NCBI GenBank assembly: GCA_005954745.1
Contig: CP040678.1
Location: 2,790,001-2,854,000, forward strand
DNA from: Halostella pelagica
GTDB lineage: Archaea > Halobacteriota > Halobacteria > Halobacteriales > Natronoarchaeaceae
Direction of reading: 5' to 3'
Length of the DNA stretch: 64,000 bases
This document shows positions 40,015 through 61,473 of the stretch, in pieces. The number at the start of each line of letters is the position of its first letter. Positions within the stretch are counted from its first letter, which is position 1. The notes under the pieces were generated by a model, which saw only the letters and a program-made list of their open reading frames with translations, was not told the DNA's origin and searched no databases. Both the position numbers and the translations under genes were made by a program.

Positions 40015-40088
40015 GTCCGGGTTGGGGTAGTGGACTATCCTTCAGCCTTGTGGAGGCTGAGACGCGGGTTCGATTCTCGCACCTGGAC
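40015..40088 (+). tRNA. tRNA-His (GTG anticodon)
   Basis: A complete cloverleaf folds: acceptor tccgggt / acctgga with the histidine-specific extra G at -1 (40015) facing C73 (40088); D stem gggt / atcc; anticodon stem cagcc / ggctg with loop ttgtgga (anticodon at 40050-40052); T stem gcggg / ctcgc with loop ttcgatt. CCA is not encoded and no intron is present. A TATA-like stretch (tattttaat) lies about 30 bp upstream. The 3' end is duplicated 108 bp downstream. Confidence 0.97.
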
Positions 40089-40198
40089 CTTCTCGCGACG
40101 AACGGACGTGAGGAGCGTGCCGTCCCCCGAAAGAGAATCGAATCACGCGAGACGAGAGACCGGGTCTCGCACCGGGTTCGATTCTCGCACCTGGACCT
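40089..40198 (+). repeat. tRNA-His 3'-end duplication with hairpin spacer
   Basis: The 26 bp at 40173-40198 repeat exactly 40065-40090, that is most of the T arm, the acceptor 3' strand, C73 and two more bases. Just before the copy is a 7-bp stem (gcgagac 40147-40153 / gtctcgc 40164-40170) with a 10-nt loop. The spacer contains gagg, cgtg, ccccc and gagaat blocks also found in the same order behind tRNA-Pro. It looks like an att-site pair or a small tRNA-associated element. The copy cannot make a full cloverleaf. Confidence 0.75.
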
Positions 40199-61256: not shown

Positions 61257-61327
61257 GGGACCGTGGGTTAGTGGTATACTCCGAGCCTTGGGTGCTCGTG
61301 ACCGCGGTTCAAATCCGCGCGGTCCCA
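61257..61327 (+). tRNA. tRNA-Pro (TGG anticodon)
   Basis: A 71-nt cloverleaf: perfect acceptor gggaccg / cggtccc, anticodon stem cgagc / gctcg with loop cttgggt (anticodon at 61289-61291), T stem cgcgg / ccgcg with loop ttcaaat, discriminator A. CCA is not encoded and no intron is present. TATA-like aaaccctttac lies about 35 bp upstream. The 3' end is repeated 142 bp downstream. Confidence 0.97.
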
Positions 61328-61473
61328 TTTCTGCCGCGAGACTTCAGAGCACCGCCGAGCGACAGCGAGGCGTGTGCGAACCCCCTTCGCGGAGAATGGA
61401 CGACTGGATCTGTAACCCTGGAAGACGAGCGAAGCGAGTCTTCCGCTGGTTCAAATCCGCGCGGTCCCATTTC
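61328..61473 (+). repeat. tRNA-Pro 3'-end duplication with hairpin spacer
   Basis: The 26 bp at 61448-61473 repeat exactly 61306-61331, that is most of the T arm, the 3' acceptor strand, A73 and four more bases. A 7-bp stem (ggaagac 61420-61426 / gtcttcc 61438-61444) with an 11-nt loop stands 3 bp before the copy. Blocks gagg, cgtg, ccccc and gagaat occur in the same order as behind tRNA-His. The copy cannot form a full tRNA because no 5' acceptor strand is present. Confidence 0.75.

Follow-up and report, generated by a model that had tools for sequence, protein, structure and literature searches.

The stretch of DNA analyzed here (the window; 64,000 nucleotides) is part of a 3.94-Mb haloarchaeal genome (labelled G000, contig C1). 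A tRNA-Pro and a tRNA-His gene lie in it, and each is followed by a copy of its own 3′ end. The initial annotation had described an exact 26-bp repeat at tRNA-Pro, starting within the T stem and ending a few bases beyond the gene, as well as a copy of the same type at the other tRNA gene of the window. Both descriptions held. The copies at tRNA-Pro were identical over 26 of 26 bp, with a start-to-start distance of 142 bp and a spacer of 116 bp, and reached from G52 to 4 bases 3′ of the gene, and the tRNA-His repeat at 40065-40090 recurred at 40173-40198. The features of the two loci are the following.

61257-61327, plus strand: tRNA-Pro(TGG) gene (ARAGORN; Rfam RF00005, 59.8 bits)
61308-61327, plus strand: tail of tRNA-Pro (T54 to A73)
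61306-61331, plus strand: 26-bp repeat, copy 1 (G52 of tRNA-Pro to 4 bases beyond the gene)
61448-61473, plus strand: 26-bp repeat, copy 2, with the displaced tRNA-Pro tail (T54 to A73) at 61450-61469
61308-61449, plus strand: inserted unit at tRNA-Pro, 142 bp (limits from the profile of 217 copies described below)
61328-61405, plus strand: trailer of this unit, with a T-rich start and then a stem-loop at about 61329-61396 (predicted fold, -33.2 kcal/mol)
61406-61416, plus strand: inverted T arm of this unit, decayed (GGATCTGTAAC; expected, GGATTTGAAC; intact in other units)
61417-61449, plus strand: hairpin core of this unit, CCTGGAAGACGAGCGAAGCGAGTCTTCCGCTGG, with a GCGAAGC tip (type A by comparison with other units)
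40016-40088, plus strand: tRNA-His(GTG) gene (ARAGORN; tail, 40069-40088)
40069-40176, plus strand: unit at tRNA-His, 108 bp (tail, trailer at 40089-40131, core at 40143-40176)
40132-40142, plus strand: inverted T arm of the tRNA-His unit, AGAGAATCGAA, intact
40173-40198, plus strand: 26-bp copy of the tRNA-His 3′ end (40065-40090), with the displaced tail at 40177-40196

The unit at tRNA-Pro is arranged as tail, trailer, inverted T arm, and core, and its GG end lies directly 5′ of the displaced tail. Its hairpin (61406-61458) gave a predicted fold of -22.4 kcal/mol, and a similarity search of phages and plasmids with this unit returned 0 matches. The core of the tRNA-His unit is type C-like.

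The limits of such units were derived from 217 copies at 148 tRNA genes. The edges of the copied block were sharp, at bases 52/53 and 73. Copy identity was 0.94 to 1.00 at bases 54 to 73, which had been used in selecting the copies; independently of this selection, it was 0.90 at base 52 and 0.96 at base 53 and, in the outer flanks, 0.34 at base 51, 0.57 at position +1, and about 0.38 by +5, with base 51 and the positions from +5 onward being near background. Units were mostly 100 to 150 bp long, had GTTC[AG]AA as the sequence of their insertion site, and lay on the strand of the tRNA wherever a tRNA was close by. They followed one plan, consisting of a tail, a T-rich trailer usually with a stem-loop, an inverted copy of the T arm of the tRNA concerned, and a core hairpin ending in GG, after which the next tail begins. 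In 78 units picked regardless of the inverted arm, this arm matched the unit's own T arm at 9.12 of 11 positions, compared to 8.06 when tails were shuffled among the units (standard deviation, 0.095; best of 5000 shuffles, 8.40) and 6.39 of 11 for random upstream DNA used as a control. Unusual T arms were mirrored by unusual inverted arms (e.g., TTCAATTCTCG/CGAGAATTGAA). As in an attC-like site, the outer stem thus covaried with the T arm, and in 45 of 55 type A units the variable inner triplet of the core was complementary at all of its positions, although many different triplets were represented. The strand that folded better was the tRNA-sense strand in 72 of 87 units with DNA parameters and in 67 of 87 with RNA parameters. 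Core families with constant flanks were common to different tRNAs and genera; the letters A to E are our own naming.

Family A: CCCTnnn..nnnTCCGG
Family B: TCAGGGA..GACCGTGG
Family C: TCACGC..CATCGGG
Family D: GTAGAGA..CGCGTGG
Family E: GCACGGA..TTCAGGCGG

The initial annotation had considered the two copies unlikely to be due to chance and the arrangement common in this genome, and a genome-wide scan for downstream copies of each tRNA's own end bore out both suppositions, with many matches beyond tRNA-His and tRNA-Pro. Stretches around all chromosomal tRNA genes found in G000 were searched for the own tail (T54 to base 73, 20 of 20 bases) within 700 bp downstream. Exact copies stood 106 to 145 bp downstream at 9 of 45 tRNA genes of the chromosome (Lys-TTT, Met-CAT [two genes], Ser-CGA, Arg-CCT [two genes], Glu-TTC, His, and Pro), and decayed tail copies were seen at Cys, Gly-GCC, Ile, and Asp. 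A tenth downstream match was not counted, being an adjacent tandem tRNA-Asp gene. The upstream control (700 bp) gave 1 match in the 45 genes, which we read as the same tRNA-Asp pair, and 0 to 1 per genome overall, and foreign tails reached at least 18 of 20 bases in 0 to 0.4% of trials in three haloarchaeal genomes. When every detected tRNA gene was scanned in genomes of other haloarchaeal families, tails matching at least 18 of 20 bases were found at 20 of 42 tRNA genes (G015) and 19 of 46 (G044), while a methanogen of the same phylum but outside the class (G174) had a tail copy at 1 of 30 tRNA loci. The converse situation, with other tRNA genes lacking copies and a single known integrative element behind the tRNA-Pro copy, was not what we found.

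A search for the hairpin signature GGATTYGAA-N24-54-GGTTCRAATCC revealed a spread across the class: it was present in 134 of 145 genomes and 54 of 58 genera of Halobacteria; of 204 genomes from the rest of the phylum, 1 carried it. These counts are a lower bound, as G000 yielded 1 signature match yet has 9 tRNA genes with exact tail copies. A reversed control pattern had 0 matches in any of the 145 Halobacteria genomes. Among the named GTDB genomes, haloarchaeal matches lay mostly 3′ of tRNA genes on the same strand. Matches in bacteria, across all GTDB genomes, were nearly all tRNA-Ser variable arms or chance and were discarded, and those in IMG/VR were mostly tRNA-Ser, with one tRNA-Glu plus unit.

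A few individual cases stand apart. In Butyricicoccus pullicaecorum (L177) and in L259, a tRNA-Pro(CGG) gene is followed by 142- to 143-bp units in which the tail recurs exactly and an inverted T arm is present, which is the same plan outside the archaea. In the Woesearchaeota MAG UBA10192 (L209), a tRNA-Ser(GCT) gene is followed by a 113-bp unit with an inverted T arm and a hairpin core, which may point to a DPANN organism living in partnership with haloarchaea or to an error in binning. Near-perfect palindromes of the form GGATTTGAACC(A/G)TGTTCCTCTGG..CCAGAGGAACA(T/C)GGTTCAAATCC, with no tRNA nearby, occurred in L493, L521, L253, and L258.

Comparison of related genomes showed units being gained and lost. 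Within the genus of the window, the tRNA-Pro site of G003 is empty, with an aldo/keto-reductase-like gene directly following the tRNA, whereas in G002 the same neighbors are separated by one unit and an exact copy of the tail. The sister species G015 and G009 differed at 27 of 27 unit-bearing tRNA loci, 22 of them in unit number, with flanks that were 85 to 100% (mostly 93 to 99%) identical, although the tail threshold of the script accounts for some of these differences; 15 loci were free of units in both genomes. Units formed tandem arrays on the same strand, in which trailers repeat while cores differ and vice versa, and a block of identical units was present at Lys-TTT in G044. Most tail copies were identical to the tail of the host tRNA. 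Tails within an array were sometimes unlike each other and unlike the host tRNA (Met-CAT, Arg-TCT), which fits with units bringing their own tails; such foreign tails were very rare (2 of about 110). On a Haloarcula plasmid, a 69-bp type A unit sits exactly at G53/T54 of a tRNA-Cys gene, and ARAGORN predicts a complete tRNA-Cys when the unit is removed. This split gene fixes the insertion point. The site has no duplicated tail, and this may speak against the tail being a fixed target-site duplication; the unit could also have lost its tail through later deletion. The plasmid (Haloarcula halophila, NZ_CP119561.1; L562) carries, densely packed and virus-like, more than 20 predicted tRNA genes, and a type B DNA polymerase lies next to them.

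We consider it rather probable that the copies are insertions of small, gene-less, non-autonomous, integron-like cassettes of about 100 to 150 bp that use the tRNA T arm and are nearly confined to Halobacteria. Such a cassette would begin with a spare tRNA tail (T54 to 73), followed by a trailer with a hairpin, and end with a hairpin recombination site composed of the inverted T arm, the structured core, and GG. It would join the tRNA gene at G53|T54, so that the incoming tail would complete the gene and the old tail would be displaced downstream of the cassette; same-strand tandem arrays would then arise by repeated insertion, deletion, and exchange. By analogy to cassette capture in integrons, the T arm would play the part of the insertion site, and the hairpin that of the cassette site. 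We infer that insertion is enzymatic, with the folded single strand as substrate and a tyrosine recombinase as the enzyme. Exact tails deep in arrays and the blocks of identical units also need tandem duplication or homologous exchange, the separate reassortment of core and trailer is beyond what a single crossover at G53|T54 explains, and part of the shuffling may stem from replication and homologous exchange.

Similar to the arrays built by IntI from attI and attC sites, the units are tandem, equally oriented, and placed beside a fixed entry site; they end in a hairpin whose structure is conserved while its sequence varies, share the G|TT junction, and are gained and lost. They differ in that the integron integrase IntI (TIGR02249) was above the curated cutoff in 0 of 97 Halobacteria genomes, the site is GTTRRRY in integrons, and the haloarchaeal units are gene-less, contain a tRNA tail, and enter at a tRNA gene. 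That they work like integron cassettes but stand outside the integron family is the best account of these features. Downstream of E. coli tyrT, tandem 178-bp repeats (rtT RNA) likewise each contain the tRNA 3′ end; these are limited to a single locus, however, and we know of no T-arm inverted hairpin in them. Rfam covariance models run on the unit arrays of 12 loci matched only tRNA and one L4 leader, with no match to the units and none to rtT. An open-access literature search yielded nothing beyond classical tRNA-integrated elements and archaeal integrons, and the cassette family appears novel on the strength of these negative literature and Rfam searches, with an earlier description elsewhere being possible. 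If our reading is right, a family of mobile repeats that spans an entire archaeal class, and that lies next to a fifth to half of the tRNA genes of the three scanned genomes, has so far escaped description. It would represent a further route, besides integrons and integrases, of adding DNA at a fixed site without damage to an essential gene, and tRNA 3′ ends would be replaced by incoming copies.

The units might instead be by-products of replication or recombination. The T arm, whose sequence (GGTTCRAATCC) is nearly universal, would offer short homology, and segments of tRNA ends would be copied by template switching at hairpins or by homologous exchange, with no dedicated mobile unit and with quasipalindrome correction maintaining the perfect inverted arms. 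Haloarchaea are polyploid and recombine readily, and both the reassortment of trailers and cores and the duplication of identical units in blocks fit such an origin. We nevertheless regard it as unlikely, given that a few conserved core hairpin families with constant flanks recur across genera, that the signature is restricted to one class (1 of 204 genomes outside) despite the universal T arm, and that the tRNA-Cys unit has an exact G53|T54 junction without a tail copy. The units also resemble non-autonomous derivatives of IS200/IS605 elements and REP/RAYT hairpins, in which a hairpin is combined with a guide complementary to the adjacent target, and the layout of guide, hairpin, and cleavage site at IS200/IS605 ends. 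The inverted arm would then be a guide pairing with the target next to the hairpin of an HUH (Y1) single-strand element. Y1_Tnp was indeed present in G003, G009, G015, and G044, whereas G000 and G002 had no Y1_Tnp match although both bear units, and the tRNA tail within each unit has no counterpart in these elements. An earlier loss of the transposase in G000 and G002 is possible; overall, we find this origin quite improbable.

A functional noncoding RNA or terminator kept behind tRNA genes by selection would account for the better-folding tRNA-sense strand and for the covariation, yet it is hard to reconcile with the lack of an Rfam match and with the variation in presence, number, and type between sister species whose flanks are mostly 93 to 99% identical, and we give it almost no weight. 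It is also very doubtful that the units are scars left by the loss or reduction of ordinary integrative elements or proviruses that target tRNA genes. Elements of this kind, with tyrosine integrases (SSV/pNOB8 type, haloarchaeal proviruses), have been described in haloarchaea (PMC3119063), and their incoming 3′ part restores the tRNA while the old part is displaced. The same restoration and displacement are seen here in the comparison of the empty and the filled site and in the 217 displaced tails. G000 itself has classical integrated elements that regenerate tRNA ends at Tyr (10.4 kb), Val-CAC (9.5 kb), and Ala-GGC (15.7 kb). These elements, however, usually span many kilobases and encode an integrase, while the units, at about 120 bp (100 to 150 bp), are gene-less and too small for an integrase gene. 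With 35 to 39 bp, the repeats at Tyr and Val exceed those of the units in length and start further 5′, and the units are narrow in size, share a two-hairpin anatomy, and stand in tandem order. Furthermore, the Ala-GGC element (G000 contig C1, 1251500-1267426), which ends in its own partial tail behind an apparent integrase C terminus, separates the tRNA from an older hairpin unit, of type D, which lies intact beyond the insertion.

Returning to integron-like cassettes, tyrosine recombinases were encoded in six of six genomes examined, and one orthologue was shared by all four genomes compared (G000, G009, G015, and G044), with identities of about 60 to 66% across families and 89% between the two sister species. 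The protein is XerA-like, scoring 109.6 bits and thus below the archaeal XerA equivalog cutoff of 220 bits. Its close plasmid relatives are haloarchaeal only; XerA proteins also occur in archaea without units. This conserved recombinase beside DUF5805 is the best candidate for the enzyme and nothing more, and the units, if our reading of them is right, offer a ready test of its role. Possibly, though we put this forward only tentatively, haloarchaea have domesticated an integron-like single-strand recombination carried out by a core XerA-like recombinase, with T arms as insertion sites. Gene-less hairpin cassettes with spare tRNA tails would be taken up there, reshuffled, and lost again, so that the 3′ ends of tRNAs would become renewable parts. 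A DUF5805 gene lay directly or closely upstream of the recombinase gene in four of four genomes from three haloarchaeal families; in G000, the pair is located at about position 1382700 of contig C1 (L588, 410-1932; further loci, L571, L580, and L587).
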